A stretch of 64,000 nucleotides of DNA from contig NZ_CP010310.2 in the NCBI RefSeq assembly GCF_000815105.2, positions 4,278,001-4,342,000 of the forward strand, in the 5' to 3' direction. Under the pieces are notes generated by a model, which was not told the origin of the DNA, did not search any database, and saw only the letters and a list, made by a program, of their open reading frames with translations. A program made the translations under genes and the position numbers. Below are positions 7,973 through 56,928 of this stretch, one piece after another; the first letter of the stretch is position 1, and each line of letters begins with the position of its first letter. This stretch comes from Pandoraea pulmonicola (lineage in GTDB: Bacteria; Pseudomonadota; Gammaproteobacteria; Burkholderiales; Burkholderiaceae).

Positions 7973-8016
7973 CGACGGATAATGATGCATCCGACATTTT
8001 TCACTTCCCGCGTCTC

Positions 8017-8943: not shown

Positions 8944-8967
8944 CGGAACGCCCACGATTGCACGCCA

Positions 8968-8984: not shown

Positions 8985-9077
8985 CGTCTTACGAAAGCCG
9001 CAACATTGGCCAGGCGGCGCGCGAGCGGGGCGTCTTTATACTTTGCAGCGCATCACAACGACTCTTAATCAAGCCAC

Positions 9078-9512: not shown

Positions 9513-9539
9513 TCGTCGGCGGTCGTCTGCCGATGCAGC

Positions 9540-9561
9540 ACGTCCCGCCATGGCGGGACGT
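9540..9561. terminator. Perfect GC-rich hairpin after the glycine-zipper gene
   Basis: An uninterrupted palindrome (arms ACGTCCCGCCA and TGGCGGGACGT) 28 bp after the stop. It has no loop bases and no T-run, so termination, if any, would be weak or the element may have another role. It could serve both converging genes. Confidence 0.45.
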
Positions 9562-9603
9562 CGGCAAGAGCGCCGCCCGATGACGTGCCGGCGCCTCGCC
9601 GTC

Positions 9604-9671
9604 TCTCCCATCTCCCTCATCTCCCTCATCTCCCTCATCTCCCTCATCTCCCTCATCTCCCTCATCTCCCA
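9604..9671. repeat. 9-bp tandem repeat (TCTCCCTCA), about 6 full copies
   Basis: Six identical 9-bp units run from 9611 to 9664, flanked on both sides by a partial TCTCCCA unit. The array lies in the convergent gap between the glycine-zipper gene and the AraC regulator. Perfect identity of the copies suggests slipped-strand variability. The opposite strand reads GAGATGAGG-type units; no credible gene starts from it. Confidence 0.9.
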
Positions 9672-9748
9672 TCCCTCGCCCCAACGCCCCCGCTCCGCGA
9701 CGCCGGACTTCCTCGTCCACGCAATCGAGCAATCATGCATTCGGGCGA

Positions 9749-10534: not shown

Positions 10535-10665
10535 AGCGTGCCCCCTGGCCCGATAGGAATGAATGTCGGTTTCATTCTTTCCTTATCGCTTCGCGCCAGA
10601 CATCAGGGTTTGCACGGATCGGCGCCGGAGCCGAAGTCCCGACACCGCGCCGGCCGTTGCGCCGC

Positions 10666-11967
10666 TCATTCCAGTGCCTTGCCGCGCGTCTCCGGCATCC
10701 ACAACACCGCGACGACGGTGAGCAGATTCAATACGATCAGATACCCCGCGAACCACCCCAGTTGGCCGTGATCGGCCAGCCAGTTCTGCAGATAGGGCGC
10801 CGTGCCGCCGAAGATCGCTACCGTGAGCGAATAGGGAATCGCCACGCCGGTCGCCCGGATGCGCGTCGGGAACAGCTCCGCGTAGACGGCCGGCGCGATG
10901 GCCGTCCATGCCGCCAGCACGACCAGCCCGCCGCAGATCGCCAGCGCCAGCCGTGCGAACGCACCGTCGATCAGCATCAGCAGCGGTACGATCGCCAACG
11001 CGGAGCCGCCGGCACCGATCAGCAGGTTCGGCTTGCGGCCGATGCGATCGGACAGCGCTCCCCACGCCGGCTGCACCGCCATGTAGACGAGACAGCCGAT
11101 CGTGAGCGCCCACAGGCCCTGCCGCGCATCGACGCCCCGAAAGTGCGTGGCGTACGTGATCGCGCCCGACATCCACGTGTTGAACGTCAACGTCGGCCCG
11201 GCGGTCAGTGCGATGATCCGCAGCACCGAAGTCCGATGCTCCCAGATCGCCTCGAGCATCGATTGCGAACGCCCCCCCGACTGCCCCCCGCTCTGCTCCA
11301 GTTCGAACGCGGACGTCTCCTTGAGACTACCGCGCAGGAACAACGCGTAGACGCCCAGCACCGCGCCGAAGAAGAACGGGATGCGCCAGCCGAAGCGGGT
11401 CATCTCGTCAGCGGAGAAGCATTGCGTGAGGACGAGTCCGACGGCGCTCGCCAGAAGCGAGCCGCCCGTGATCGCGATGAACATGCTGCTCGACCACAGG
11501 CCGCGCCGGTGCACGGGGGCGCTTTCGACGAGGAAGGTAAACGAGGCGCCGATCTCGCCGCCGAGGCCGAAGCCCTGCAGCAGACGTCCGAAGACGAGCA
11601 ACGCGGGCGCCAGCAGACCGATGGACGCATAGGTCGGCGCCACCGCGATCACCAGGCAGCCGGCGGCCGTGACAGCCATCGACGCCACCATCGCGAAGCG
11701 CCGGCCACGTCGGTCGGACAGCCAGCCGAAATAGATGCCGCCGATCGGCCTCAGCAGGAAGCCGACGGCGAAGACCGCCAGCGTGGAGAGGAAAGCCGCC
11801 GTCGGGTCCGCGGCGTGGAAGAACTGGGTCGAGAAGTAGCGCGAGAACAGCACGAAAGAGGCGAAGTCGTACCACTCCAGCGCGTTGCCGATGCCCGCGC
11901 CGAGGATCACCGATCGAGCCGGTGAACCGCGCTCGCCGCCGGCGACGGCCTGCAAGGTCGCATCCAT
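10666..11967 (-). CDS. MHS family MFS metabolite:proton symporter
   Basis: A 433-residue, 12-helix transporter. The N-terminal segment GAGIGNALEWYDFASFVLFS and the loop GWLSDRRGRRFAMV identify the metabolite:H+ symporter family (shikimate, proline/betaine, dicarboxylate and similar substrates). I chose the ATG at 11967, which has AGGAGA nearby; the open frame runs further upstream without family similarity. It is divergent from the flavoprotein/Fe-S operon starting at 12288, and probably imports the organic acid that those enzymes oxidise or reduce. The substrate is not identifiable from sequence. Confidence 0.9.
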   Translation of the reverse strand: MDATLQAVAGGERGSPARSVILGAGIGNALEWYDFASFVLFSRYFSTQFFHAADPTAAFLSTLAVFAVGFLLRPIGGIYFGWLSDRRGRRFAMVASMAVTAAGCLVIAVAPTYASIGLLAPALLVFGRLLQGFGLGGEIGASFTFLVESAPVHRRGLWSSSMFIAITGGSLLASAVGLVLTQCFSADEMTRFGWRIPFFFGAVLGVYALFLRGSLKETSAFELEQSGGQSGGRSQSMLEAIWEHRTSVLRIIALTAGPTLTFNTWMSGAITYATHFRGVDARQGLWALTIGCLVYMAVQPAWGALSDRIGRKPNLLIGAGGSALAIVPLLMLIDGAFARLALAICGGLVVLAAWTAIAPAVYAELFPTRIRATGVAIPYSLTVAIFGGTAPYLQNWLADHGQLGWFAGYLIVLNLLTVVAVLWMPETRGKALE

Positions 11968-12287
11968 GTTTGTCTCCTGAGGGTCGTTGTTTTGTGTTGT
12001 CGATGGCGTTGTCATTCGTTCCCTGGCCCCCAACACACTACTTCGCCTGCACGCGCCGCGACACCGCCGACAGGACAACTCATATCGCAATACGGACAAA
12101 TTGCTCCCCCGCCCCCTGCCCCTTGCGCCTTGCGCCTCGTCCGCTTGCCCCTCCCCCTTCCTCCCCGGCGGGTGCCAGTTTGGCCGCTTTGCTGGATGGT
12201 CTGTCCCGATCGCTGCATCGGCCGCCCGCCGCCTCGACACAATGGATCCAAGACACATCACGACCTGTCCGGGAGGGCATTGCTGCG
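11968..12287. other. Divergent control region with C-rich tracts
   Basis: These 320 bp separate the divergent MHS transporter and flavoprotein genes. I see no gene. Two pyrimidine tracts at 12104-12122 and 12148-12166 place three runs of four or more G close together on the minus strand each time, so a G-quadruplex is possible. Promoters could not be assigned with confidence. Confidence 0.4.
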
Positions 12288-14015
12288 ATGAAACTTCTGA
12301 ATTGCGATGTCGTCGTCGTTGGCGGCGGCGGCGCGGGCACCTACGCCGCGCTGCGGCTGCACGACCTCGGCCTGAAACCGATGCTGATCTCGAAAGGGCT
12401 CGTCGGCAAGAGCGGCGCGTCGATCATGGCCGGCGCCGTGATCGTCGGTTCCAAAATGCTCGGCGGCACGGAGCACAACGCCGCCAGTTCGCTGGAGTTC
12501 TTCGCCAAGTACTACAGCCACTTTCTGGTGGATCAGTCCTATCTCGCGGCGGCTGGCCAGTGGATCGAGAACACCTTCTATCCCGAGATGGAATCGCTGG
12601 GGCTGCTGTTCTCCCGCGAGGCCGACGGCAGTATCGCCATGAGCCATTCGCCGGTGCGCTGGGCGGTGGCGCCGATGCAGGGGCAGACGGGCATCCTGCT
12701 CATGGACATTCGCCGCAAGCAGTTGCAGGCCAGGGGCATCCCGATACACGAGGAATGCGCGGTCACGGCGCTGCTGCGCAATGCCAACGGCGAGGTGTGC
12801 GGGCTGACGGCCTTCGACTTCGTTCGCGGCGAGCTCTTCGCCGTGCATGCGAAGGCCGTCATCATGGCGACCGGCCACGCCGACCGGCTGGTGCGGCGCT
12901 CCACCGGCACACGCGAGCAGACCGGCGACGGCATCGCGCTCGCGCTGCGCGCAGGCGCCGAGCTTACCAATCTGGAGATGCAGTTCTGGCATATCAGCGA
13001 CTTTGCGAACCCGCCGACGTGGCAGCGTCTGCACATCTATCCGAATCCGCTGATCGGCACCGACCAGAGCTCGCGCGTGTACAACGCGCAAGGCGAGTGC
13101 TTCTTCGAGCAGGCCCGCGACGCCCCCGCCGCGCTCGCGCCCTACACGTTGCAGGTCAAGCGGCTCACGCAGCAGGTGCTGGCCGGCAAGGCGCGATTCA
13201 GCGGCGGCTACTACACGTCGTACAGCCACATCGACGCCGACGTGCTGCGCCGCTATCAATACGCCGGCTCGGCCTTCGAGAAGCTAGGCCTTGACATCAC
13301 GCGCGACAAGGTCGAAGCCCGCACCACGATGCACTACCGTCAAGGTGGCATCGAGTCGGATCCGCATTCGATGCGCACGAGCGTCGACGGGCTGTGGGTC
13401 GCGGGCGGTGTCGGCGCTCACGTGACGGGCAGCCTCGCCGTCGCGATCTACGACGGCGGGCTGGCCGCGGAGTCGGTGGCGGGCCGTCTGTGCGAGCGCC
13501 ATCGGCACGACGACGCGACGCAGCAACAGATGCAACGGGAATTCGCGCGCGTCGAAGGCTTGCTGGGTGGCGAACAGCGCGCTCGCCCGGGCGAGGCGCC
13601 GATGCACGTCAAGACCGCCATCTGGGACGTCATGGGCGAAGCTTACGGTCTGATCAAGAGCGGGCGGGCGATGCGCGACGGCCTCGACCAGCTCGAAGCG
13701 TTGCGCACGCGCAGCCTGCCGCGCATGACGCCGCCCAGCCGCTCGCGCCGCTACAACACCGCGTGGCTGGACGCGCTCGACGTCCACAACCTCATCGACG
13801 TATGCGAGGTCACGTTGCGCAGCGCACTGCAGCGCGAAGAGAGCCGCGGCAGCTTCTACCGCACCGACTTTCCGTACGTGGACAACACCGCGTGGCAGTG
13901 CAAGAACATCGTCGCGCGCGACGACACCGGCTACCGATTCCGCAAGGAACGCTATCCCGAAGGCACCCTCACGCCGGACTTCGACCGGCAGGAGTATTTC
14001 AGTGTGCCGTGGTGA
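12288..14015 (+). CDS. Fumarate reductase/succinate dehydrogenase-like flavoprotein subunit
   Basis: A 575-residue FAD protein. Residues 5-24 are the Rossmann dinucleotide fold (CDVVVVGGGGAGTYAALRLH), followed by GKSGASIMAG, where SdhA/FrdA proteins attach or bind FAD. Later GDGIALALRAGAELTNLEMQ and RQGGIESDPHSM then GLWVAGGVGAHVTGSL match the family. The usual QFHPT segment is replaced by QFWHISD, so the substrate may not be succinate or fumarate. GGGAGGG lies 10 bases before the ATG. It is followed directly by an Fe-S subunit and a CCG-domain subunit, the gene order of MfrABE/SdhABE complexes. Confidence 0.82.
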   Translation: MKLLNCDVVVVGGGGAGTYAALRLHDLGLKPMLISKGLVGKSGASIMAGAVIVGSKMLGGTEHNAASSLEFFAKYYSHFLVDQSYLAAAGQWIENTFYPEMESLGLLFSREADGSIAMSHSPVRWAVAPMQGQTGILLMDIRRKQLQARGIPIHEECAVTALLRNANGEVCGLTAFDFVRGELFAVHAKAVIMATGHADRLVRRSTGTREQTGDGIALALRAGAELTNLEMQFWHISDFANPPTWQRLHIYPNPLIGTDQSSRVYNAQGECFFEQARDAPAALAPYTLQVKRLTQQVLAGKARFSGGYYTSYSHIDADVLRRYQYAGSAFEKLGLDITRDKVEARTTMHYRQGGIESDPHSMRTSVDGLWVAGGVGAHVTGSLAVAIYDGGLAAESVAGRLCERHRHDDATQQQMQREFARVEGLLGGEQRARPGEAPMHVKTAIWDVMGEAYGLIKSGRAMRDGLDQLEALRTRSLPRMTPPSRSRRYNTAWLDALDVHNLIDVCEVTLRSALQREESRGSFYRTDFPYVDNTAWQCKNIVARDDTGYRFRKERYPEGTLTPDFDRQEYFSVPW

Positions 14016-14083
14016 CGCGCGATGGCGCCTTCATCCACGATTCATCACGATCCGTCACAAGCCATTGCACGCGGGGGAGACAC

Positions 14084-15043
14084 ATGCATTCGGAAGTCAG
14101 GCGATTTCAGAGAGAAGCCGACAACGATCCGGCGACGGTGACGCTGCACGTCAGCCGCTTCGATCCCGAAGTGGACAACGCGCCATACGTGCAAACGTTC
14201 TCGGTGCCGCACGTACCGCGGATGCGCATCATCGACGCACTCAACCACGTGCAGGAAACCCTCGGCGTGGATATCGGCTACCGCTGGTACTGCGGCACGA
14301 AGAAATGCGGCACGTGCGCCGTAAGGGTCAACGGCCGCGAAGTGTTGGCGTGCTGGGAGGCCGCCGAGGCGGAAATGCATGTGGAGCCGCTGCGGCATCT
14401 GCCGCTGATTCGCGATCTTGCCGTCGATCGCACGCCGGCCGAAAACAAGCTGGTGTCATTGCAGACGTGGCTTCAGCGCACGCGGCCCTATGCGGGCTTT
14501 CCGGAACCCATCGACGCGGCCAACGCGGCGGTGCTGCGCGCGAGCATGGACTGTCTGAGCTGTCTCGCGTGCTACTCGGCGTGCCCGGTGCTCGACTTTG
14601 CGGACGACATCGCGTTCGCCGGGCCGGCGCCACTGGTGCACCTCGCGCGGGTCGCCCTCGATGCGCGCGACGATGCCCCGCGACTGCAGACGATTCTCGA
14701 CGAGGCGCAGGTTCACCACTGCGTGTCCTGCTACCAGTGCGAAGCCGTATGCCCCGCGCACATTCCGATCGTGAGCGCCGCCATCGAACCGCTCAAGCGA
14801 CTGGCCTATGCCGCAGCGCCCGAGGCGTCGCCGCACACGCGGACGTTCATGCGCATCGTCGCATGGCGTGGGCGCATCGAGCCGATGCTGCTCGTCCTGG
14901 GCACACGAGGATGGCGCGCCCTCGTGCAACATCCTCGCCGCACGCTCAAGCTTGTGCTGCGGGGAAAGGTCAATCCCGTCGCGGCGCTGCTGCGGCGCCC
15001 GATCGACGGCATGAACAAGATCAAACGATATTTCCTTGAGTGA
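14084..15043 (+). CDS. SdhB/FrdB-like iron-sulfur subunit
   Basis: A 319-residue electron-transfer subunit. Cys70, 75, 78 and 90 (WYCGTKKCGTC, then a distal Cys) form a ferredoxin-type [2Fe-2S] site in residues 20-110. The C-terminal half has two CxxCxxCxxxCP motifs, at Cys157-160-163-167 and Cys213-216-219-223, for the remaining clusters; classical SdhB has one [4Fe-4S] and one [3Fe-4S], and here both motifs are complete. GGGGGAGA lies just before the ATG. The gene follows the flavoprotein gene by 68 bp and is 8 bp ahead of the CCG subunit, so one operon is very likely. Confidence 0.9.
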   Translation: MHSEVRRFQREADNDPATVTLHVSRFDPEVDNAPYVQTFSVPHVPRMRIIDALNHVQETLGVDIGYRWYCGTKKCGTCAVRVNGREVLACWEAAEAEMHVEPLRHLPLIRDLAVDRTPAENKLVSLQTWLQRTRPYAGFPEPIDAANAAVLRASMDCLSCLACYSACPVLDFADDIAFAGPAPLVHLARVALDARDDAPRLQTILDEAQVHHCVSCYQCEAVCPAHIPIVSAAIEPLKRLAYAAAPEASPHTRTFMRIVAWRGRIEPMLLVLGTRGWRALVQHPRRTLKLVLRGKVNPVAALLRRPIDGMNKIKRYFLE

Positions 15044-15051
15044 GGGCAGTC

Positions 15052-15942
15052 ATGAAAATCGCCTTTTATCCGGGCTGCAGCGCGCGCACCACGTGCGGCG
15101 AACTCGGCGCAGCCACGCATGCCGTGGCCGATCGGCTCGGCATCGCGCTTGAAACGCTGCACTCCGCCACCTGCACCGGCAGCCGGGAAATTCGCGCGGC
15201 CGACGAGGAGCGCTTTCTCACGCTGAACCTGCGCATCGTCGCGCTGGCCGAGGCGAAAGGGCTCGATCTGATGACCGTCTGCAACACCTGCACGCTCAAT
15301 CTCATGGAGGCGAAGCAGCGGGCAGACCGCGATCCCGAACTGCGAACCCGCATCAATCGGCGACTCGCCGACGAAGGGCTGACCTATCGCGGCACCGCGC
15401 GCGTCACGCACTTTCTCTGGTATCTGCTGGAGGAAGTCGGCGAGGCTCGCCTTCGGTCGCTGGTGACGACGCCACTGTCGGAACATCGCATCGCCGCGTT
15501 CTACGGCTGCCACATCGTCCGGCCGCCGTCGTTGTTCCAGGACACCGATGCGCGCGAGGTCCAGTCCATCGAAACGCTGGCGCAGATCCTGGGATGCACG
15601 ACCGTCGATTACTCGGGGCGGACGGAATGCTGCGGTTTTCACTGTTCCGCACAAAGCGACGTGATCCCGATCAAGTTGAGCGGGCGACACGTGGCGTCGG
15701 CCAAGCGTGCCGGCGCCGACGCCATGGTCACCCCCTGCCCGCTCTGCCACACGGTGCTCGATACGTATCAGGACGACATGGCGCGCAATCTCGGCCAGCC
15801 GCTGGACGTCCCGGTGCTGCATCTGCCGCAACTCGTCGGGCTGGCGCTGGGCATCGACGCGAAGACGCTCGGGCTGCATCGCCATGTGGTGCCCGCGCAA
15901 GCGCCGTGGCGACGCGTGATTCCATTGCGCGCGCAAACGTAA
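15052..15942 (+). CDS. CCG-domain subunit (HdrB/SdhE/MfrE-like)
   Basis: A 296-residue protein with two cysteine-rich CCG domains as in heterodisulfide reductase HdrB, glycolate oxidase GlcF and MfrE/SdhE. The C-terminal motif is complete: Cys153 (YGCHIVRP), Cys193-Cys194 (TECCGFHC) and Cys229xxCys232 (TPCPLCHTVLD). The N-terminal motif has Cys9, Cys41, Cys77xxCys80, but Thr42 replaces the second Cys of CCG (ATCTGSRE). In MfrE-type complexes this subunit replaces the haem membrane anchor and passes electrons from quinone or thiols. No membrane segment was seen. The ATG at 15052 follows GAGGG. Confidence 0.85.
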   Translation: MKIAFYPGCSARTTCGELGAATHAVADRLGIALETLHSATCTGSREIRAADEERFLTLNLRIVALAEAKGLDLMTVCNTCTLNLMEAKQRADRDPELRTRINRRLADEGLTYRGTARVTHFLWYLLEEVGEARLRSLVTTPLSEHRIAAFYGCHIVRPPSLFQDTDAREVQSIETLAQILGCTTVDYSGRTECCGFHCSAQSDVIPIKLSGRHVASAKRAGADAMVTPCPLCHTVLDTYQDDMARNLGQPLDVPVLHLPQLVGLALGIDAKTLGLHRHVVPAQAPWRRVIPLRAQT

Positions 15943-44763: not shown

Positions 44764-46344
44764 TTATCGACTGACAGTCGATGTTTGCGCGTCTGGCGAC
44801 GCCAATAGCCAGTCGATGAGAATCGGTTTCTGCACTTTCCCAAGTGCGCTCTTCGGCAGGGTCTCGCGGATCACGACACGCCGCGGCAGTTTGAACCGGG
44901 CGATGCGCGTGGCGAGAAAGTCGAGCACCGTTTGCTGTGTAAGCGGCGGAAGGGACAGAGACGTAGACGTAGGCGAAGACGACGGCGCCGGGACGATGAC
45001 AGCCACCGGCACCTCCCCCCAACGCTCGTCCGGCACACCCACGACGGCGGCTTCGAGCACGCCGGGGCAATCGGCCAGCGCGTTTTCGATTTCCGCGGGA
45101 TAAATGTTCTCGCCGCCCGAGATGATCATGTCCTTGCTGCGGCCCACCACCTCGAAGCAGCCATCCTCGCGCAGCCGCGCCAGATCGCCGGAACGGAACC
45201 AGCCGTGCGCGAACGATGCGTTCCCAGGGGCGCGCCAATACTCGCGCATGACGTTCGGCGCGCGGATCAATATCTCGCCCACCGTTCCCCTCGGGACTTC
45301 GTTGCCCGCGGTATCGACGAGGCGCACGTCGACGCCGGGGCAGGCGCGCCCGACGGCGCCGGGATGCGCCTTGGCTTCGCCGAAGCGCAACGCAATCGAT
45401 ACCGGGCCGGTCTCGGTGGCACCGTACACCTGTCCGAGCGGAATGCCACGCGCATGGAAGGCGTCGATGGCCGACATCGGCACCACCGACGAGCCAGCCA
45501 TCACACCGCGCAGCGATGACAGATCGGTCTGCGCCCACCGCGGATGCAACTGTACGGCTCGCATCGTCGCGGGCACCATCAGCGAGAGCGTCGGGCGGCG
45601 CGCGGCCACGTCGGCAAGCCAGGCGGCAGGATCGAAGCGCGGGTGCAGCGTCACGCTCGCGCCGCGCAGCAACGCCGGCAGCGTCTGGATGCACAGGCCG
45701 CCAACGTGGAACATCGGCAGCGTGGAAAGCACGTGATCGTCGGCGGTCATGTCATGCGCCCACCAACTGGCGTGCGCGTTCGCGAGCAAGCCTGCCTGCG
45801 TATGTAATGCACCCTTGGGTTCGCCCGTCGTGCCCGAGGTGTAGGCCAGCAACACCGGTGCATCGGGAGCGACTTCGGGATAGTCGACCGGCTTCACCGA
45901 CGGCACCGCGATCAGGCCCTCGATCGGGGCGATGGCCGGTGGCGGCAGATCTGTGATGGCGTCCTGCTCCAGCGTGTCGCGGATCTGGCGGGCGGCATCG
46001 CGATGCATGGCGTCGAACCACAGCACGCGCACGCCGGCATGACGCACGATGGCGGCGAGCTCGGGAACGGCAAGGCGGAAGTTGAGGGGAAGAAAAATCG
46101 CACCGGCGCGGGCACAGGCGAACAGCAACGCCAGTTGCAGTTCGTCGTTCAGGCCGAGGCAAGCCACGCGGTCGCCCGGCGCAATGCGCCACGTCTCGCG
46201 CAGATGCCCGCCCACACGCTCGATGCGCCGCCACAGCGCGGCGTAGTCGGTTTGCAACGCTTCCTCGCCGATACCGCAACGCAATGCCAGCCGCTCGGGC
46301 GTGGCGCGCGCGTGAGCGGCAAGCGCTTCTACAAAAGGCGTCAA
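44764..46344 (-). CDS. Acyl/aryl-CoA ligase of the NicX-type cluster
   Basis: A 526-residue AMP-forming ligase. The P-loop is LLAYTSGTTGEPKGALHTQ, the adenine motif QVYGATETGPVS, the hinge region WFRSGDLARLREDGCFEVVG and GENIYPAEIENALADCPGVL, and the C-terminal catalytic Lys in LPKSALGKVQKPIL. The start is TTG at 46344, preceded by GGAG. It carries a Ser/Pro/Thr-rich insert (APSSSPTSTSLSLP) near 465-480. It activates a carboxylic acid of unknown type; the neighbouring oxygenase-like genes suggest an aromatic or heteroaromatic acid. Confidence 0.9.
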   Translation of the reverse strand: MTPFVEALAAHARATPERLALRCGIGEEALQTDYAALWRRIERVGGHLRETWRIAPGDRVACLGLNDELQLALLFACARAGAIFLPLNFRLAVPELAAIVRHAGVRVLWFDAMHRDAARQIRDTLEQDAITDLPPPAIAPIEGLIAVPSVKPVDYPEVAPDAPVLLAYTSGTTGEPKGALHTQAGLLANAHASWWAHDMTADDHVLSTLPMFHVGGLCIQTLPALLRGASVTLHPRFDPAAWLADVAARRPTLSLMVPATMRAVQLHPRWAQTDLSSLRGVMAGSSVVPMSAIDAFHARGIPLGQVYGATETGPVSIALRFGEAKAHPGAVGRACPGVDVRLVDTAGNEVPRGTVGEILIRAPNVMREYWRAPGNASFAHGWFRSGDLARLREDGCFEVVGRSKDMIISGGENIYPAEIENALADCPGVLEAAVVGVPDERWGEVPVAVIVPAPSSSPTSTSLSLPPLTQQTVLDFLATRIARFKLPRRVVIRETLPKSALGKVQKPILIDWLLASPDAQTSTVSR

Positions 46345-46515
46345 CTTGTTCTCCGTGACAAGAGAGACGGCCGCCCGGCGAGGCGAATGCCATGCGCAAT
46401 CACACTCGTCATACTCGCCGGCGGGTTGCGAACGGCCCGGCCCGCGACGGCTACCGATGTCGCAACGTTCCGCGCATCGATGCCGTGTCGGCGGGCGGCG
46501 GCGCCGATGCGTGGA

Positions 46516-47760
46516 TTACTCGTCACGCTCGCCCGGTTCGTAGAGCGCTTCGCGGCCGATGCGATCGAGGCAAAGCTCGGCCGTCCACGGCAGCATGAGC
46601 GCGCCGCAGCGCGAATCGCGATACATGCGCTCGAGCGGTAGCGTCTTGAGCATCGACTGTCCGCCGCACGTGCGAATCGCGAGACGGCACAGTTCGTTGG
46701 CATTTTCCATGATCGTGTACTGCGCCGCGTAGGCGCGCAGACGCGCGTCCTTGCCCGGGTCGGCGCGACCGTCCTGCAACGCCCGCAGGAACAGCGCGCG
46801 CGTCTGCTCGAGCATGATGTGCATCTGCGCCACGGCAATCTGCTTGGTCGGGTACATGCGGCGCTTGACCGGCGCGCCCATGCCTTCGGCCTCGCCGCGC
46901 AGATAGCGAACGGTGAAGTCGTAGGCGGCTTGCGCGATGCCCATGTAAGTCGGTGCGAGCGTCATGAACATGTGCGGCCAGCGGCTCGCGGCCTGATAGT
47001 ACACACCGCGCGGCATCAGCTGCAGCGCGTCGGGCACGAAAACGTCCTTGAAGAGCAGCGTGCGCGAGACCGTGCCGCGCATGCCCAGCGAGTCCCAGTC
47101 GCCCGTCACGGTCACGCCTGGCGCGTCGCCCGGCACGGCGATGTAGAACGTGTCCTTCATCGACAGCTCGGGCTTGTCCTCGGTACACAGCACGCCGTAG
47201 TAGTTTGCCGCCCCTGAGAGCGATGCGAAGATCTTGCGGCCGTTGATCTTCCACCCGCCGTCGACCTTCGTGGCCGTGGTGCCGAACGGCGCCTTGCCCG
47301 CCGCCGCCGCACTGCCCTCCGAGAACGGCTGCGCGTAGACGGCGCCGTCCTGGATCACGCGGGCGAAGTGATGCTCGCGGTATTTCTGGTGCTCGGCGCG
47401 CTGCTCGGGCGTCATGTCGAGATCGTCGGCGAGAATGCCCGTCCACATCATCGAACACGTGTGCATGTTGAATGTGAGCGCGGTCGCACCGCAGTGGCGG
47501 CCCAGTTCGGCGGAGACCATCATGTACGTGGCGAAGTCGGCCCCGAGACCGCCATGCGACTCGGGAATGCACAGCTTGAGCAAGCCGGCCGCGCGCATGT
47601 CGTCGTAGTTCTCGAACGGGAACGACGCTTCGCGATCCCAGCGCGCGGCGCGCGGCGCGAGCGACTCGCGTCCGACCTGCTCGGCAAGCGCCAGCAGGCG
47701 TCGCTGCTTGTCCGTGAGCGGATAATGCTCGCCGACGATCGAAGGGGGCTGATAGGCCAC
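46516..47760 (-). CDS. Acyl-CoA dehydrogenase-fold flavoprotein, possibly a monooxygenase
   Basis: A 414-residue protein of the acyl-CoA dehydrogenase superfamily. FAD-site features SHGGLGADFATYMMV and PFSEGSAAAAGKAPFG plus WKINGRKIFASLSGAA match the fold. The C-terminal position that normally holds YEGT with the catalytic Glu reads CGALMLPWTAELC, so the usual base is missing. Proteins of this fold paired with a flavin reductase can act as group D flavin monooxygenases, and one is encoded nearby (49810). The start is GTG with AGGAGA upstream. Substrate unknown. Confidence 0.83.
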   Translation of the reverse strand: MAYQPPSIVGEHYPLTDKQRRLLALAEQVGRESLAPRAARWDREASFPFENYDDMRAAGLLKLCIPESHGGLGADFATYMMVSAELGRHCGATALTFNMHTCSMMWTGILADDLDMTPEQRAEHQKYREHHFARVIQDGAVYAQPFSEGSAAAAGKAPFGTTATKVDGGWKINGRKIFASLSGAANYYGVLCTEDKPELSMKDTFYIAVPGDAPGVTVTGDWDSLGMRGTVSRTLLFKDVFVPDALQLMPRGVYYQAASRWPHMFMTLAPTYMGIAQAAYDFTVRYLRGEAEGMGAPVKRRMYPTKQIAVAQMHIMLEQTRALFLRALQDGRADPGKDARLRAYAAQYTIMENANELCRLAIRTCGGQSMLKTLPLERMYRDSRCGALMLPWTAELCLDRIGREALYEPGERDE

Positions 47761-47769
47761 GGTAGTCTC

Positions 47770-48603
47770 CTAGAGTGTTGCGAGGAAAGCGCACACCTCG
47801 GCGTTGAAGTCCGCCGGGTGCGTCAGATTCATCAAATGGCCCGCGCCCGGCAGGCACACGTAGCGCGCATCGGGAATCGCCTCGGCCATGCGCGCCATCA
47901 CCTTCGGCGGCGCGTTGTTGTCGTGTTCGCCCGCGATGAGCAGCACGGGCACGGCCAGACGGGCGAGCGCCGCGCGCTGCTCGAAGCCGACGAGCGCATG
48001 GAGTGCGGCGCGATAGGCCTCGGGCGTGAGCGCCCCCATCGCGTCGACGGCCACGGCATGCGCGCGCCGACGCATGTCGTCGTCCGGCTCGCCCAGCATG
48101 CCGGGCACGATCGCTTCGGCCATCTCGCGCAGCGTCTTGCCCGCGTCGAGCGGCGCGGTGCGCTGACGCACGAATTCGCGCTGGAAATCGCCGTCCGGCT
48201 TGCCGAATGCGGGCGACGTGCCGCACAGCACGAGCGCCGCAATGTCGCGCGTGAACGGCGCGCCACGCGCCATCAACTCCTGCGCGACCATGCCGCCCAT
48301 GCTGTGGCCGACGAGCACGAAACGCGCCGGCTGCGATGCGGCGGAGCCGTCGGACCGGCCAGAGCTGGCGAGGCTGTCGAGCAAGGCGCGCAGGCTGTCG
48401 GCCAGCGCCGCCATCGTCGGCTCGGATGGCATGACGCTCTCGCCATAGCCTGGCATGTCCCACGCGACGACGCGATACCCGGACGCGACAAATGCCTCGA
48501 ACTGCGCGGGCCACACGTTGCGATTGCCGCCGATGCCGTGCAGCAGCAAGAGCGTGAGCGGTCCCTCGCCTGCCACGAGGCAGGCCGGTACGGAATGCGT
48601 CAT
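47770..48603 (-). CDS. Alpha/beta hydrolase of the NicX-type cluster
   Basis: A 277-residue hydrolase. LLLLHGIGGNRNVWP forms the oxyanion region, the nucleophile Ser101 lies in VGHSMGGMVAQ, the acid is probably Asp in AGEHDNNAPPK and the base His in GAGHLMNLTHP. It overlaps the dioxygenase gene by one base (ATGA-type). In nicotinate degradation the equivalent position in the pathway is N-formylmaleamate deformylase (NicD), but similarity to NicD is only general, so a deformylase, enol-lactonase or thioesterase role is open. Confidence 0.85.
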   Translation of the reverse strand: MTHSVPACLVAGEGPLTLLLLHGIGGNRNVWPAQFEAFVASGYRVVAWDMPGYGESVMPSEPTMAALADSLRALLDSLASSGRSDGSAASQPARFVLVGHSMGGMVAQELMARGAPFTRDIAALVLCGTSPAFGKPDGDFQREFVRQRTAPLDAGKTLREMAEAIVPGMLGEPDDDMRRRAHAVAVDAMGALTPEAYRAALHALVGFEQRAALARLAVPVLLIAGEHDNNAPPKVMARMAEAIPDARYVCLPGAGHLMNLTHPADFNAEVCAFLATL

Positions 48604-49649
48604 CACGCGAACTCGCCCTGAAGTTGACCGTCGCGCACCACCACGTCGCCGTCGAGGGCGATCGTGCAGCGGCGCAACGGAAGATCGAAATGGCCGAGCG
48701 TGTGGCGACCGGCCACTTCGTTGGCGCCCGTCGAGTACAGGAAGTTGCCGGCGAAGGCGCGCTGCTCGGTGCCGTTGCAGTCGCGCTTGTCGTAGCAGGC
48801 GAGTGCATCCCAGCGCGCACGCTGATTCAGACCGAAGCCGACATGCGAAACGGCGTAGGCTTCGCGATCGCCCCACGCGGCGAAGTACTCGCGCATGAGG
48901 TCGACGTCAACGCCCTCGCCGTCGATCGCCACGACATAGTCGTCTTCGACCGTGAGGGCGATGCGATCGCGCAGGTATTGCTTGAAGGTCAGGTTGATGT
49001 CGCCCGGCGCGAGCACGAGCTGGCCGTTCACACTGTGGGCGGCGGGGAATGCCAGCGCCAGGCCACCCGGCCAATGCGCCACCTGGCCGGGCCTGGCGCA
49101 CCAGCCCCAGACCCCGCCCACGCGCGCATCGAGCAGGCCGATGCGCAGGTCCGTGCCGGCGGCCGACGTCACGTGCATTTGCGCTGCGCCGCGCAAACGC
49201 TTGATCGCCGCGCGCACCTTGGGTTCCAGCGCGGGATCGGTCGCGCAGCGCTCCAGGATTTCCGGGTGTTCGTTGGAGACCATCAGCACGCGTGCGCCAC
49301 CGCCGAGAATGTCAGGCAGTTCGGGGGCGTGCAACAGGCCTTCGACCGTGCAGTCAACCACGAGCGTGGCAGCCTTGAGCGCCGCGACGACGGGGACCAG
49401 TTGGCCGAGCGCATCGCTCGCGCCGGTGGAGCGCACCGGCACCGGCGCGCTCACGCGCGGGCTCGGCACCACCAGCCGAAAAGGCCGTGCGCCCAGCGAT
49501 TCGGCGGCCAGTTGCGCCAATTCCACGTTGACAGGCCGGGATTGCGTTTCGGCTACAATCGCCACCACATCACCGGGTCGTATGTCGCAGCGCCGCAAGG
49601 TCTCGGCAAATACGTCGATCCACTTATGCTCGATTCGTTCGATCAGCAT
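48603..49649 (-). CDS. NicX-type 2,5-dihydroxypyridine 5,6-dioxygenase-like enzyme
   Basis: A 348-residue non-haem iron dioxygenase, the same length as NicX of Pseudomonas putida. Iron ligands align: His269 in YAVSHVGFGLNQRARW, and His320 and Asp322 in GHFDLPLRRC, the counterparts of NicX His265, His318 and Asp320. HWPGGLALAFP and LAPGDINLTFKQYLRDRI are also NicX-like. NicX opens 2,5-dihydroxypyridine to N-formylmaleamate. AGGAGA sits before ATG 49649. As a CoA ligase and flavoprotein are in the same unit, the true substrate may differ from that of NicX. Confidence 0.85.
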   Translation of the reverse strand: MLIERIEHKWIDVFAETLRRCDIRPGDVVAIVAETQSRPVNVELAQLAAESLGARPFRLVVPSPRVSAPVPVRSTGASDALGQLVPVVAALKAATLVVDCTVEGLLHAPELPDILGGGARVLMVSNEHPEILERCATDPALEPKVRAAIKRLRGAAQMHVTSAAGTDLRIGLLDARVGGVWGWCARPGQVAHWPGGLALAFPAAHSVNGQLVLAPGDINLTFKQYLRDRIALTVEDDYVVAIDGEGVDVDLMREYFAAWGDREAYAVSHVGFGLNQRARWDALACYDKRDCNGTEQRAFAGNFLYSTGANEVAGRHTLGHFDLPLRRCTIALDGDVVVRDGQLQGEFA

Positions 49650-49752
49650 ATCGTCTCCTGAGCGTCTGACCATCCCGCCCGCCAAGGGCTTCGCCCCGAG
49701 GCACACCGTCGGCCGTCACGCGTCTTGTCGATCTGTTGTTCGTGCCATAATA

Positions 49753-49766
49753 TATGAATATTCATA
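49753..49766. promoter_or_regulatory. Probable MarR operator in the divergent cluster promoter
   Basis: TATGAATATTCATA is a perfect 14-bp palindrome in an AT-rich stretch between the dioxygenase (start 49649) and the flavin reductase (start 49810). Its size and symmetry suit a MarR dimer, and a MarR gene follows the reductase. A TATAAT-like sequence lies on its left edge. Confidence 0.65.
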
Positions 49767-49809
49767 CAAATCAACCCGATCAAATTTGCCGGACGGGAGT
49801 GCAGGGACA

Positions 49810-50328
49810 GTGAACGCCAAACACGCCGCAGCGCCTGATTTCGACAGCGCAGCTTTTCGCCATGCACTCGGTCAGTTCGCCACCGGGGTCACGGTCATCA
49901 CGACGCGCGCCGACGACGGCTCGCTCATCGGCATCACCGCCAGTTCGTTCAATTCCGTCTCGCTCACGCCGCCGCTCATTCTGTGGAGCCTGGCCACGCG
50001 CGCGGGCAGCATGCCGGTGTTTCGCGAGAACTCGCATTACGCCGTGAATGTGCTGGCGGCCGATCAGCTCGACATCTGCAAGCGCTTCGCCACGATGAAG
50101 GGCGACCGATTCGCGGGCGTACCGTACACGCTGTCCGCGTCCGGCACGCCGGTGCTGGACGGCGCGCTGGCGTGGTTCGAGTGTCATAACCGCAGTCGCT
50201 ACGACGAAGGCGACCACGTCATCTTCGTGGGCGAGGTCGAGCGGTGCGGCATTCACGCCGAAGCGTCCAAGCGCATGCCGCTGATCTTCCATTCGGGCGG
50301 TTTTCACAAGCCGCAGTCGCTCGGCTGA
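49810..50328 (+). CDS. FMN/FAD flavin reductase (HpaC-like)
   Basis: A 172-residue reductase of the flavin-reductase domain family. FRHALGQFATGVTVITTRAD and GITASSFNSVSLTPPLILWS are the standard signature, followed by GDHVIFVGEVERC. Such proteins supply free reduced flavin to two-component monooxygenases. The start is GTG at 49810, as no in-frame ATG lies closer. It is divergent from the dioxygenase operon and 19 bp ahead of the MarR gene. Confidence 0.92.
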   Translation: MNAKHAAAPDFDSAAFRHALGQFATGVTVITTRADDGSLIGITASSFNSVSLTPPLILWSLATRAGSMPVFRENSHYAVNVLAADQLDICKRFATMKGDRFAGVPYTLSASGTPVLDGALAWFECHNRSRYDEGDHVIFVGEVERCGIHAEASKRMPLIFHSGGFHKPQSLG

Positions 50329-50347
50329 GTCCCCGGAGGTGTCCGCC

Positions 50348-50806
50348 ATGCCTGCCGCCGCGCCATTCGTCGACGACTATCTCGCCTATCTGCTGGCTCG
50401 TGCGAGCACATTGGTATCGGACGAATTTCATCGCGAAGTGGCGGCAGCCGGGCTCGGCATTTCGGAGTGGCGCGTGCTCGCCACGCTCTCTGACGGCCGG
50501 GCGCGCACCATCAACCAGTTGGCGGCCATCGTGCTCGCCAAGCAACCCACGCTCACCAAGGTTGTCGACCGGCTCGAAGCCACGGGCGACGTGGTACGCG
50601 GCGAAAGCGCGACGGACCGGCGTCAGTCGCTCGTCTCCCTGACCGAGGCCGGGCAGGCGCGCGTGGCGCCACTGCTCGCCAGTGCACGACGTCACGAAGC
50701 CGGCATCCTGGCACGCTTCGGCGCCGAACAATCGTCGCTGCTCAAGGCGACGCTGCGCAGCCTGATCGACGAAATGGTGGAAGGGGCACAGGGCCCCACC
50801 AAATAG
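50348..50806 (+). CDS. MarR family regulator of the NicX-type cluster
   Basis: A 152-residue winged-helix repressor. The HTH and wing are GISEWRVLATLSDGRARTIN, QLAAIVLAKQPTLTKVVDRL and the wing VRGESATDRRQSLVSLT. GGAGG stands 8 bases before the ATG. It is co-transcribed with the flavin reductase and likely binds the palindrome at 49753-49766, reacting to an aromatic acid or CoA ester as other MarR proteins do. NicR, which controls nicotinate genes, is also a MarR protein. Confidence 0.92.
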   Translation: MPAAAPFVDDYLAYLLARASTLVSDEFHREVAAAGLGISEWRVLATLSDGRARTINQLAAIVLAKQPTLTKVVDRLEATGDVVRGESATDRRQSLVSLTEAGQARVAPLLASARRHEAGILARFGAEQSSLLKATLRSLIDEMVEGAQGPTK

Positions 50807-50997: not shown

Positions 50998-51031
50998 AGA
51001 TGCGCATATCGATTCACGCATTTGCGCATCT
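50998..51031. promoter_or_regulatory. Inverted repeat directly before kynB
   Basis: AGATGCGCA (50998-51006) and TGCGCATCT (51023-51031) are perfect 9-bp arms separated by 16 bp, ending 3 bases before the kynB ATG. It covers the region where the ribosome-binding site should be, which is otherwise absent. It may be an operator for a KynR-like protein or an RNA hairpin that controls translation. Confidence 0.5.
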
Positions 51032-51033
51032 CC

Positions 51034-51699
51034 ATGACCGCACCCCACAAACCGTCTGCACAGGCGCGCGACGAGCGCCGCGTCTGGGACATCAGTGCCC
51101 CGCTGTCGAGCGACACGCCCGTCTGGCCAGGTGACACGCCGTTCTCGGAAGAGGCGGTGTGGCAAATCGGTCCGGGGTGTCCGGTCAACGTAGGGCGCAT
51201 CACGCTGTCGCCGCACACGGGCGCGCATGCCGATGCGCCGCGTCACTATGACGACGACGGCGTATGCATCGGCGATGTCGCGCTCGAGACGTATCTCGGG
51301 CCGTGCCGCGTCATTCATTGCCTGGGGGCGTCGCCGGTCGTGACGCCGGAGATGGTTGCGCCGTATCTGTCCGACGTGCCTTCGCGCGTTTTGCTGCGCA
51401 CGTACGAACGCGCGCCGCTTGCGCGCTGGGACAGCGAATTCTGTGCGGTGGCGCCGCAAACCATCGACCTGCTGGCGTCGCACGGCGTGAAGCTCGTGGG
51501 CATCGACACGCCGTCGCTCGATCCGCAGGAGAGCAAGACGATGGACGCTCACCATCGCATTCGGGCGCATCGCATGGCGATCCTCGAAGGACTGGTGCTC
51601 GACGAAATCGCGCCGGCCGACTACGAGCTCATCGCCTTGCCGCTCAAATTCATGCGGCTCGATGCCAGTCCGGTGCGCGCGGTGCTGCGCTCGCTTTGA
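51034..51699 (+). CDS. kynB: Kynurenine formamidase (arylformamidase)
   Basis: A 221-residue metal-dependent hydrolase that turns N-formylkynurenine into kynurenine and formate. The cyclase-family metal motif [12 protein letters not shown] and the opening [20 protein letters not shown] are diagnostic; the C-terminal half has [18 protein letters not shown]. No clear ribosome-binding site precedes the ATG; an in-frame TTG at 51022 is an alternative. First gene of the kynB-kynU-kynA unit. Confidence 0.95.
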
Positions 51700-51803: not shown

Positions 51804-53057
51804 ATGACGTCTTCTCGCAACGATTGTCTGGCCCTCGACGCGGCCGATCCGCTCGCCCCGCTGCGGGCGCAATTCGACCTGCCGCCGGGGGTGATCTACC
51901 TCGATGGCAACTCGCTGGGCGCGCGCCCGATCGCATCGCTCAAGCGCGCGCAGGAGGTCATCGCGGCCGAGTGGGGTCAAGGCCTCATTCGCAGTTGGAA
52001 CGATGCCGACTGGTTTGCGCTGCCGCGCACGCTCGGCGATGCGCTCGCCCCGATCATCGGTGCCGGCAAGGGTGAGGTGGTGGTCACGGACACCACGTCG
52101 AGCAACCTCTTCAAAGTCATGGCGGCCGCGCTCGACGCACAGCGCGCGCGTGCACCAAAGCGCAAGATCGTGGTCTCGGAGCGCAGCAACTTCCCGACCG
52201 ATCTGTACATCGTGCAGGGACTTACGCGTTTGCTCGACGACGGTTACTCGCTGCGTCTGATCGACTCGCCGGAGGAATTGCCGAACGCGCTCGGCGACGA
52301 TGTCGCCGTGGTGCTGCTCACGCATGTGAACTATCGCACTGGCGCGATGTACGACATGACGGCCCGCACGGCGGAAATTCATGCGGCTGGCGCGCTGGCC
52401 GTGTGGGATCTCTGCCATTCGGCCGGCGCCGTGCCGGTGGATCTCAATGGCGCCGGCGCCGATTACGCCGTGGGCTGCACGTACAAGTACTTGAACGGCG
52501 GCCCGGGCGCTCCGGCTTTCGTGTGGGTCAACAAACGTCATCAGGACACCTTCTGGCAGCCGCTCTCGGGCTGGTGGGGCCATCGCACGCCGTTCGCGAT
52601 GACGCCGGAGTACACGCCCGATGACGGCATCGGCCGTTACCTGTGCGGCACGCAGCCGATCGTGTCGCTCTCGCTCGTGCAGTGCGGGTTGGACATTTTT
52701 GCGCAGACGTCGATGCAAGCGCTGCGTCGCAAGTCGCTGGCGCTGACCGATCTGTTCATCAGGCTGGTGGAGGAGCGTTGCGCCGAGTTCCCGCTTACGC
52801 TGGTAACGCCGCGCGAGCATGCTGCGCGCGGTTCACAGGTGAGCTTCGAGCATCCGGAGGGTTTCGCCGTGGTCCAGGCGCTGATTGCGCGTGGCGTGAT
52901 TGGCGATTATCGCGAGCCGCGCATCATGCGTTTCGGTATGACGCCGCTGTACACCAGCTTTGCCGACGTGTGGGATTCGGTGGAAATTCTGCGTGACGTA
53001 CTGAGCACCGGATCGTGGGACAAGCCCGAGTTTCGTCGCCGCGGCGCGGTGACCTGA
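51804..53057 (+). CDS. kynU: Kynureninase
   Basis: A 417-residue PLP enzyme that cleaves kynurenine to anthranilate and alanine. [20 protein letters not shown] and the Lys that binds PLP in [19 protein letters not shown] are clear, with [20 protein letters not shown] just before it and [12 protein letters not shown] after it. It lies 16 bp ahead of kynA. A ribosome-binding site is weak. Confidence 0.97.
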
Positions 53058-53073: not shown

Positions 53074-54075
53074 ATGAGCAAGACATCCTCTTCAGTACAC
53101 AATCCGCACGACAAGAACGAAAAGCACGACGTGAAAGAAGCATCGACCGCAGCCCCCGCCACAGGCGGATGTCCGTTCGGGCATCAGAGCGCCGATGCGG
53201 CCGATGCCGCCACGCCGGGCGCCGCGGGCGCGCGCCCGGACGCGCCTGCCAACGCAACGCAGTGGCACGATGCCAAGCTCGACTTCTCGAAGAGCATGAG
53301 CTATGGCGACTACTTGTCGCTCGATCCGATTCTGAATGCGCAACATCCGCGCTCGACCGATCACAACGAGATGCTGTTCATCATTCAGCATCAGACGAGC
53401 GAGTTGTGGATGAAGCTGGCGCTGTACGAGTTGCAGGCGGCCCGCACGGCCGTGCACAACGACGAGTTGCCGCCCGCGTTCAAGATGCTGGCCCGCGTGT
53501 CGCGCATTCTGGAGCAGTTGGTACAGGCGTGGAGTGTTCTGGCCACAATGACGCCGTCGGAGTATTCATCCATGCGGCCGTCGCTGGGCAGTTCGTCGGG
53601 CTTCCAGTCATACCAGTACCGCATTCTGGAGTTCATGCTGGGCAACAAGAATGCCGCGATGTTGCAGCCGCATGCGCATCGCCCGGACCTGTTCCAGCAG
53701 GTGGAGGCAGCACTTCATGCGCCGTCGTTCTACGACGAGGTCGTTCGCTTGCTGGCACGTCGTGGTTTTTCGATTGCGCCGGAGCGTCTGGAGCGTGACT
53801 GGACGAAGCCGACACCTCACGACAAAACCGTGGAATCTGCCTGGCTCGAGGTGTATCGCAATCCGGCGCAGTATTGGGAGCTTTACGAGATGGCTGAAGA
53901 ACTGGTCGATCTCGAAGACGCGTTCCGTCAATGGCGCTTCCGTCACGTGACGACGGTCGAGCGAATTATCGGCTTCAAGCAAGGCACGGGCGGTACCAAC
54001 GGTGCACCGTACCTGCGCAAGATGCTCGATGTCGTGCTGTTCCCGGAACTGTGGCACGTACGCACGTTGTTGTGA
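53074..54075 (+). CDS. kynA: Tryptophan 2,3-dioxygenase with an N-terminal extension
   Basis: A 333-residue haem enzyme that opens the indole ring of L-tryptophan to N-formylkynurenine. The core starts near residue 65 with [20 protein letters not shown] and contains [24 protein letters not shown]-type [20 protein letters not shown] and [16 protein letters not shown] near the end fit the family. The first 64 residues are an Ala/Asp-rich linker with the motif GCPFGHQ, longer than in most relatives. AGGGAG is the likely ribosome-binding site. Confidence 0.96.
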
Positions 54076-55734: not shown

Positions 55735-56928
55735 ATGGCAGGCAGTGCACAGTTCAATTGGGAAGATCCGCTGTTGCTCGACGCGCAGCTCACCAGCGAC
55801 GAGCGCATGATTCGCGACGCCGCAGCGGCTTACGCGAACGACAAACTCGCGCCGCGCGTGCTCGAAGCGTTCCGTCACGAGCGCACTGACGCCGCGATCT
55901 TCCGCGAGATGGGCGAGATCGGCCTGCTCGGCCCGACGATTCCGGAACAGTACGGCGGCCCGGGCCTGAACTACGTCGCCTACGGCCTGATCGCGCGTGA
56001 AGTCGAACGCGTGGACTCGGGCTATCGCTCGATGATGTCCGTGCAATCGTCGCTCGTCATGGTGCCGATCTTCGAATTCGGCAGCGAAGCCCAGAAGCAG
56101 AAGTATCTGCCCAAGCTCGCCAGCGGCGAATGGATCGGCTGCTTCGGCCTGACCGAACCGAACCATGGCTCGGACCCGGCCGGCATGACCACGCGCGCCA
56201 GGAAGGTCGCCGGTGGCTATGAATTGACCGGTGGCAAGATGTGGATCACCAACTCGCCGATTGCCGACGTGTTCGTGGTCTGGGCCAAGCTCGCCGACGA
56301 CAACGGCGAGGAGAAGATTCGCGGCTTCATCCTCGAGAAGGGTTGGAAGGGTCTGTCCGCTCCTGCCATTCACGGCAAGGTCGGGCTGCGCGCGTCGATC
56401 ACCGGCGAGATCGTCATGGATCAGGTCTTCGTGCCGGAAGACAACCTCATGCCGGGTGTCTCCGGCCTGAAGGGCCCGTTCACCTGCCTGAATTCCGCAC
56501 GCTACGGTATCGCCTGGGGTGCACTGGGCGCCGCCGAGTTCTGCTGGCACACCGCCCGTCAATATGTGCTCGACCGTCAACAGTTCGGCCGCCCGCTCGC
56601 CGCGAACCAGCTGATTCAGAAGAAGCTGGCCGACATGCAAACGGAAATCACGCTGGGCCTGCAAGGCTGCCTGCGCCTGGGCCGCATGAAGGATGAAGGC
56701 ACCGCCGCCGTCGAAATCACCTCGATCATGAAGCGCAACTCGTGCGGCAAGGCTCTGGACGTGGCACGCCTGGCACGCGACATGCTCGGCGGCAACGGCA
56801 TTTCGGACGAATTCGGCATCGCACGTCATCTCGTGAACCTCGAAGTGGTCAACACCTACGAAGGTACGCACGACATCCACGCGCTGATCCTGGGCCGCGC
56901 CCAAACGGGAATCCAGGCCTTCTTCTGA
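55735..56928 (+). CDS. gcdH: Glutaryl-CoA dehydrogenase
   Basis: A 397-residue FAD enzyme that oxidises and decarboxylates glutaryl-CoA to crotonyl-CoA in lysine and tryptophan breakdown. The ACAD motif [17 protein letters not shown] and the catalytic Glu in [19 protein letters not shown] are intact. [20 protein letters not shown] with the Arg that contacts the glutaryl group supports GcdH over general acyl-CoA dehydrogenases. GGAGG lies before the ATG. Electrons go to ETF. Confidence 0.95.

Follow-up and report, generated by a model that had tools for sequence, protein, structure and literature searches.

The window considered here is a 64,000-nucleotide stretch of the Pandoraea pulmonicola genome (a single contig of 5.87 Mb, NZ_CP010310.2), in which six genes join a CoA ligase to a candidate ring-cleavage dioxygenase related to NicX. 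Four genes lie on the minus strand in the order NicX-like, hydrolase, flavoprotein, ligase, and a reductase–MarR pair lies divergently on the plus strand. The stop codon of the gene for the candidate dioxygenase (48603..49649, −; NicX subfamily, class A; structure match 7cn3) overlaps by one base, as TGATG, with the start codon of the alpha/beta hydrolase gene (47770..48603, −; PF12697/PF00561). Next come the genes for an acyl-CoA-dehydrogenase-fold (ACAD) flavoprotein (46516..47760, −; PF02771/02770/00441/08028) and an AMP-forming CoA ligase (44764..46344, −; TTG start; PF00501 + PF13193). The plus-strand genes, both with GTG starts, encode an NAD(P)H:flavin reductase (49810..50328, +; PF01613) and a MarR regulator (50339..50806, +; PF12802/PF01047), and the divergent promoter holds the palindromic putative operator TATGAATATTCATA (49753..49766), which is conserved in relatives. 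All six genes reported in the first-pass annotation, which was made from the sequence alone, were recovered at these positions with minor trimming only; the assignments agree with the open reading frames (ORFs), with Pfam and NCBIfam for five of the six proteins and, for the NicX-like protein, which has no match in either database, with structure 7cn3.

The NicX-like protein matches the solved NicX (7cn3) with an E value of 9.3e-55. In NicX of Pseudomonas putida KT2440, the Fe(II) ligands are described as His265, Ser302, His318, and Asp320 (PMC7910607). His269, His320, and Asp322, named earlier as the iron ligands of a NicX-type dioxygenase, align with His265, His318, and Asp320, and Ser306 takes the place of the fourth ligand, Ser302. 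The window protein thus carries the ligand set of the NicX family and falls inside that family at the metal site, and its assignment as a NicX-type enzyme is supported.

Relatives of the protein fall into two sets. Class A sequences are 54–100% identical to the window protein (E <1e-100), whereas class B sequences are at most 43% identical and comprise the NicX-type proteins of nic-type clusters, solved NicX included. The window genome has a single match to the family, and no class B gene was found there. Residues were compared in 29 class A sequences, of which 27 are distinct because L110 = L076 and L111 = L077 (the same genes at differently numbered loci); the partial fragment L109 is omitted. 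The four iron ligands and the equivalent of NicX Arg293 are kept in all 28 sequences that reach the ligand positions and in 28/28, respectively, as are those of His105 (29/29) and His189 (28/29). In the structural report on NicX, Glu177 bonds ring N1 and O1 of 2,5-dihydroxypyridine, both Glu177 and His189 contact N1/O1, exchange of Glu177 for Ala leaves 2.7% activity, and a single substrate is accepted (PMC7910607). No class A sequence (0/29) has Glu at position 177, in contrast to 11 of 11 class B sequences. Glu308 of NicX is also replaced in class A, a change less certain than the one at Glu177 because an alignment gap is adjacent. In an alignment of 14 sequences, class A has invariant residues of its own, including E34, Q36, R38, E103, G104, N126, N219, and T221, the invariant Glu residues being 34, 103, 127, and 295; of these residues, E103, N126, N219, and T221 set it apart from NicX. 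As judged from these alignments, class A retains the iron site and has lost the pyridine-recognising residue; of the residue set of a dihydroxypyridine dioxygenase, it keeps His189 and misses Glu177. Where proteins are named among the 25 listed of 195 plasmid records, class A members are labelled ‘peptidase M29’ (relatives from two genera) and class B members ‘2,5-dihydroxypyridine 5,6-dioxygenase’.

A scan of named genomes yielded at least 535 relatives; counts out of 80 given here refer to the best 80 loci, the near part of the family. These loci span Pandoraea, Cupriavidus, Polaromonas, Limnohabitans, and other Burkholderiales, as well as Mesorhizobium, other Alphaproteobacteria, a Pseudomonadales bin, and Acidimicrobiia bins, the closest named relatives being in Pandoraea (NicX-like protein up to 97% identical). 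For the 58 loci flanked on each side by 4.5 kb or more, partner genes were sought within 6 kb of NicX, with identity and coverage limits set by hand. The ACAD gene is present in 56/58, the ligase and the hydrolase each in 54/58, MarR in 47/58, and the reductase in 46/58; ACAD and ligase occur together in 54 and all five partners in 43. With Pandoraea excluded, the last two counts are 45 and 34 of 49. The six genes are therefore conserved as a unit, beyond the Burkholderiaceae too, and the pathway idea of the first-pass annotation survives the comparison. No hydrolase was found within 6 kb in 4 of the 58 well-flanked loci, and in five loci without one (L160, L167, L170, L175, and L183, of which L170 and L175 lie outside the 58) the ACAD gene directly follows NicX. 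Because these loci keep that arrangement, the core of the unit seems to consist of ligase, ACAD, and NicX; the thioester hydrolysis included in the pathway as first proposed may be kept as a step that seems optional.

The perfect 14-base palindrome between the divergent genes, also noted at first, is unremarkable by itself, since the window holds 16 such palindromes; it was rejected as stand-alone evidence and accepted only after comparison with relatives, which preserve it across genera as ATGAAWWTTCAT(AT). The 80 loci (1.41 Mb) contain 52 exact 12-base sites, where base composition alone predicts 0.03; no locus has more than one, and every site falls in the 600 bp upstream of the NicX-like gene. 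Short contigs and less closely related loci are among the 28 that lack an exact site. A looser form of the operator gives 55 sites, 49 within 420 bp upstream and six at 556–580 bp upstream, the latter at loci where the reductase gene is co-directional with NicX and the MarR gene is divergent. The 14-base form ATGAAWWTTCATAT has exactly one copy in six of eight whole genomes, always at the NicX promoter, and none in the other two; a control pattern has zero sites in the eight. The window genome has a single copy. This distribution points to a regulator that would be dedicated to this unit. That the genes form a conserved unit with its own operator is almost certain.

The partner proteins suggest what the unit may do. 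The nearest solved structure to the ligase is feruloyl-CoA synthetase (8wev, E 1.3e-96), with anthranilate-CoA ligase far weaker (4wv3, E 2.4e-38). The flavoprotein has 5z8t and 5gj7 as its best solved matches (E 1.3e-38). It had been described as lacking the usual catalytic Glu, and its LMLPWT segment does lack Glu, with Pro391 in 92 of 94 relatives (some genes may be counted twice). That this segment is the place of the catalytic Glu of acyl-CoA dehydrogenases is our assumption, made by eye; alignment to the window’s own true dehydrogenase gave no reliable register across it. The flavoprotein is proposed to be an FADH2-dependent, group D-like hydroxylase; its ACAD fold is assigned by sequence, LMLPWT has no Glu (register by eye), and the reductase is near NicX in 46/58 loci. 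It resembles the two-component flavin monooxygenases HPAH C1/C2 (p-hydroxyphenylacetate hydroxylase, HPAH) and HsaA/HsaB in being an ACAD-fold protein that comes with a flavin reductase, but scores far below the models for their oxygenases (48.7 against a cut-off of 650 bits for HPAH; 66.6 against 450 bits for HsaA). The hydrolase is PcaD-like, with a score under the model cut-off, and is proposed to be an acyl-CoA thioesterase or a hydrolase of the ring-opened product.

The best solved match of the reductase is the HPAH reductase (5zc2, E 2e-36), although its score of 176.3 bits lies below the HPAH reductase cut-off of 340 bits. The first half of that model (NF045919) matches the reductase and the second half the MarR protein. 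In three loci (L062, L064, and L072), the two are fused as one ORF of 320–335 amino acids, like the HPAH reductase model, and the fused regulator may also gate the reductase.

The cluster is followed on the plus strand, at about 51.0–54.1 kb, by genes that we take to be kynB (kynurenine formamidase, 51022..51699, +), kynU (kynureninase, 51840..53057, +, start approximate), and kynA (tryptophan 2,3-dioxygenase, 53074..54075, +); beyond them is an acyl-CoA dehydrogenase gene (55735–56928), presumably for glutaryl-CoA dehydrogenase. kyn genes are adjacent in 21 of the 80 loci (9 Pandoraea and 12 others, 10 of the latter Cupriavidus). Genes of a second operon, of 2-aminobenzoyl-CoA type, lie within the stretch at 22/80 loci. 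One or the other is present at 42/80 and both at a single locus, L177, where kyn genes, the monooxygenase, and the NicX cluster stand together. The link to tryptophan-derived aromatic acids suggested earlier is thus supported, and the neighbours of the cluster point to ANTHRANILATE.

The second operon encodes a FAD_binding_3 + Oxidored_FMN fusion, an SDR protein, an enoyl-CoA hydratase, a MarR protein, an acyl-CoA dehydrogenase, an AMP-dependent ligase, and a RidA-family protein. Its ligase best matches anthranilate-CoA ligase (4wv3, E 3.5e-82), with benzoate-CoA ligase near (2v7b, 1.3e-76), and the architecture of its monooxygenase is presumably that of the Azoarcus 2-aminobenzoyl-CoA enzyme. 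We read it as a probable 2-aminobenzoyl-CoA (abm) operon, and as anthranilate-specific on account of the 4wv3-like ligase, the RidA-family protein, and the presence of kynU or kynA beside or inside it at L104 and L105. The abm pathway of Azoarcus evansii and Cupriavidus, which is described as ending by beta-oxidation type steps, resembles the scheme proposed below in its CoA-activated aminobenzoate and flavin monooxygenase and is adjacent to or co-occurs with the cluster; it differs in having a ligase of another branch, a FAD_binding_3 + Oxidored_FMN fusion as the flavoprotein, and no NicX. This monooxygenase/reductase is not among the six cluster genes.

Co-occurrence extends to whole genomes. 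A draw of 398 genomes from the phylum was scored on the best five candidates per genome for NicX and gentisate dioxygenase and the best two for the monooxygenase, so that some absences may be misses. The full-length monooxygenase is present in 19/19 class A genomes, against a match in 71/398 overall (Fisher 6.5e-16); at genus level the co-occurrence is 12/12 (3.1e-9), with kinship above genus uncorrected. In a panel of 34 cluster-bearing genomes, 30 have the full-length monooxygenase and 26 have kynA. The monooxygenase is matched in 26 of 35 named genomes hand-picked from the 80 loci (Pandoraea and most Limnohabitans being left out), in 24 at full length. In the window genome, the abm-type operon coexists with the NicX cluster (C1:3,997,328-4,004,596, ligase to monooxygenase), its monooxygenase about 322 kb away, and a 3-hydroxyanthranilate dioxygenase scores over its cut-off. 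The anthranilate 1,2-dioxygenase pathway (AntABC) was also considered: none is over the cut-off in the 34 genomes, the best AntA (TIGR03228) score being 306.8 against 671.9 bits.

On these grounds, the cluster is probably involved in aminobenzoate or anthranilate-related metabolism, and a carbocyclic aminobenzoate is preferred as its substrate over a nitrogen heteroaromatic acid. More specifically, it may serve to break down an aminobenzoate, with anthranilate via 5-hydroxyanthranilate as the likeliest case, although for the exact route our confidence stays somewhat short of even. The CoA ligase would convert the acid, CoA, and ATP to an aryl-CoA, the ring of which would be hydroxylated by the ACAD-fold flavoprotein with O2 and reduced flavin from the reductase. 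The alpha/beta hydrolase would cleave the thioester and free the hydroxylated acid, a seemingly dispensable step, and the NicX-subfamily iron enzyme would open the ring. With anthranilate derived from kynurenine, hydroxylation would take place at C5 of the CoA ester and cleavage at the stage of 5-hydroxyanthranilate. MarR bound at the ATGAAWWTTCAT operator would repress the divergent promoter, and either the acid or the CoA ester would lift this repression. We infer all of the reactions, their order, the action of the regulator, and the substrate.

Anthranilate with 5-hydroxylation is the first choice for three reasons: the neighbours of the cluster make (kyn) or use (abm) this acid; the new hydroxyl would stand para to an amino group, a pattern like the 2,5 arrangement of the NicX substrate; and 5-hydroxyanthranilate is a long-described intermediate of anthranilate with no enzyme known to reviews. 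The logic is that of the Streptomyces SdgABCD pathway from salicylyl-CoA to gentisate, in which the acid is joined to CoA, the ester is hydroxylated at position 5, and the released product undergoes ring cleavage; that pathway uses a cupin dioxygenase and another kind of flavin hydroxylase, whereas this cluster has a NicX-subfamily enzyme and an ACAD-fold flavoprotein. 5-Hydroxyanthranilate was reported as an anthranilate intermediate in Nocardia opaca (Cain 1968, as cited in PMC4539516), and the gentisate route of anthranilate via this compound is described as having ‘an unreported enzyme’ (PMC6221969, PMC4539516).

Several observations weigh against this assignment. By its structure matches, the cluster ligase appears closer to feruloyl-CoA synthetase than to anthranilate-CoA ligase. 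Four of the 34 panel genomes (G273, G151, G111, and G355) have no full-length fusion protein, abm-type ligase, or kynA, and of the 35 named genomes nine have no monooxygenase match and two only a partial one. The abm-type operon and the 3-hydroxyanthranilate dioxygenase are two other possible anthranilate routes in the window genome, and so strong a co-occurrence is not what one would expect merely from two routes running side by side to one end. Within 6 kb of NicX, no partner gene was seen at L125 and no ACAD gene at L148. The three variant loci described below also have a gentisate-dioxygenase-like gene, so that ring opening there may fall to an enzyme other than NicX. Two stronger forms of the proposal were rejected: strict dependence of the cluster on the 2-aminobenzoyl-CoA monooxygenase, by the four panel genomes and nine named genomes just given, and a role as the sole anthranilate outlet of the window genome, because of the two other routes.

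The substrate might instead be a related compound that yields anthranilate, or a by-product of the 2-aminobenzoyl-CoA pathway, such as 5-hydroxyanthraniloyl-CoA released by the 2-aminobenzoyl-CoA monooxygenase/reductase, with the cluster feeding or cleaning up after that pathway. This would explain why the monooxygenase accompanies class A in all 19 genomes of the phylum draw and is adjacent in 22/80 loci, and the dissimilarity of the cluster ligase to the genome’s own anthranilate-CoA-ligase-like protein suggests a different acid. However, the cluster occurs without the full-length monooxygenase in the four panel genomes, and the nine named genomes with no match, although mostly binned and so possibly gapped, include one 3.0 Mb chromosome record (L183). 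Furthermore, a clean-up role would need neither ligase nor flavoprotein, yet both are near NicX in 54/58 loci. We regard this alternative as somewhat unlikely.

The reading first proposed, in which a nitrogen heteroaromatic acid is activated with CoA, hydroxylated by a two-component enzyme, hydrolysed, and opened by NicX, agrees with the sequence and the metal site, both of which place the protein in the NicX family. Candidate acids are nicotinate, picolinate, quinolinate, and kynurenate, and kynurenate is a possible by-product beside a kyn operon. However, the Glu177 that holds ring N and O1 is replaced in all 29 class A sequences, and the neighbouring genes handle a carbocyclic aminobenzoate. 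Class A also differs from NicX in having a CoA ligase and an ACAD-like flavoprotein as partners. Families c5, c6, c7, and c9 (cytochrome-c containing, alpha/beta hydrolase, Amdase, and FAD_binding_3 proteins), the roles of which we take to be nic-cluster functions, recur around class B and are present in none of the class A loci compared, the amidase family not being examined separately; nearly all of those class A loci have the ACAD gene, and many the ligase, hydrolase, reductase, and MarR genes. The separation from nic and pic clusters made earlier thus holds for these four families. A true nic cluster was rejected on the missing nic families and the loss of Glu177, and a heteroaromatic substrate is unlikely.

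It is improbable that class A is a metal-dependent hydrolase (for example, one deaminating 5-hydroxyanthranilate to gentisate, with a separate gentisate-type dioxygenase opening the ring), as the ‘peptidase M29’ annotation, the four invariant Glu residues, the gentisate 1,2-dioxygenase-like and fumarylacetoacetate-hydrolase-family genes just upstream of NicX in L074, L075, and L193, and gentisate-dioxygenase-like matches in 15/19 class A genomes (49/398 overall) might suggest, given that class A keeps all four NicX iron ligands and has counterparts of Arg293 and His105, that a gentisate-dioxygenase gene was found in 3 of 120 loci searched (class B loci among them), and that most genomic matches are distant (33–40% identity).

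The anthranilate route via 5-hydroxyanthranilate thus remains the favoured explanation. No paper joining NicX or dihydroxypyridine dioxygenase with a CoA route for anthranilate was found in the open-licence literature (subscription journals were outside the scope), and the gene set, conserved in many bacteria, is apparently so far undescribed. Terms from both fields do appear together in PMC10293998, a genome data note, and in PMC7842363, on salicylate in Aspergillus. That it represents a widespread aerobic route, in which anthranilate is ligated to CoA and hydroxylated at C5 by an ACAD-fold monooxygenase, 5-hydroxyanthranilate is released, and a NicX-subfamily enzyme cleaves this carbocyclic aminophenol, is a tentative proposal, with the odds against it. 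If it is true, the class A protein would be, as far as we know, the first NicX-type enzyme acting on a benzene ring, and the cluster would supply genes for the 5-hydroxyanthranilate route reported in 1968, making the enzyme step missing since then directly testable. NicX defines a separate type of iron-dependent ring-cleaving enzyme, which would be broadened by a large sister subfamily that shares its metal site and has another substrate pocket and CoA-linked partners. The ‘peptidase M29’ label in public records would be corrected, and the breakdown of tryptophan, indole, and anthranilate would gain a branch in Cupriavidus, Limnohabitans, Polaromonas, Pandoraea, and others.

A variant cluster combines NicX and ACAD genes with a Polyketide_cyc2/hydrolase fusion and a TetR gene and has no adjacent type I ligase (L063, L065, L074–L076, L092, the Ensifer plasmid L192, and the Aminobacter plasmid L193). 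A glutamine-synthetase-like gene occurs in L074–L076, L092, and L192–L194 and an APC permease gene in L074, L075, and L192–L194; no copy of either was found at L063 or L065. The gentisate-dioxygenase-like and fumarylacetoacetate-hydrolase-family genes of L074, L075, and L193 are on the same strand as NicX. The former protein matches 3bu7 (E 5.9e-168) and scores below the NCBIfam cut-offs for gentisate and 5-aminosalicylate dioxygenase, and the pair fits the chemistry of 5-hydroxylated benzoates, which counts in favour of the proposed anthranilate route. On plasmid pAA02 of Aminobacter aminovorans (L193, 5263-17376), the variant forms one block: genes for the gentisate dioxygenase-like protein, a fumarylacetoacetate hydrolase family protein, a carbon-nitrogen hydrolase, a flavin reductase, the NicX-like protein, and ACAD come first, and those for a hydrolase, TetR, the glutamine-synthetase-like protein, a LysR-substrate-domain protein, and the APC permease make up the remainder. 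The glutamine-synthetase-like gene there could reflect activation of an amine rather than an acid.

Further arrangements were seen in single groups of genomes. In G633, G752, and G700 of the phylum draw, which have no class A NicX, the same gentisate-dioxygenase subgroup as in the variant cluster (67–75% identical) lies directly beside a monooxygenase of the FAD_binding_3 + Oxidored_FMN type. Locus L060 (G151, 5224-15174) has a one-strand run of transketolase-GAPDH-PGK-NicX-ACAD-ligase-PK, an odd setting for a catabolic unit. The class A clusters of L069, L070, and L093, all from one genus, have extra octopine/nopaline-dehydrogenase-like and 3-hydroxyacyl-CoA dehydrogenase genes, together with genes for an IlvD-type dehydratase and an ABC transporter with an NMT1/THI5-like binding protein, and these extra genes are possible downstream steps.

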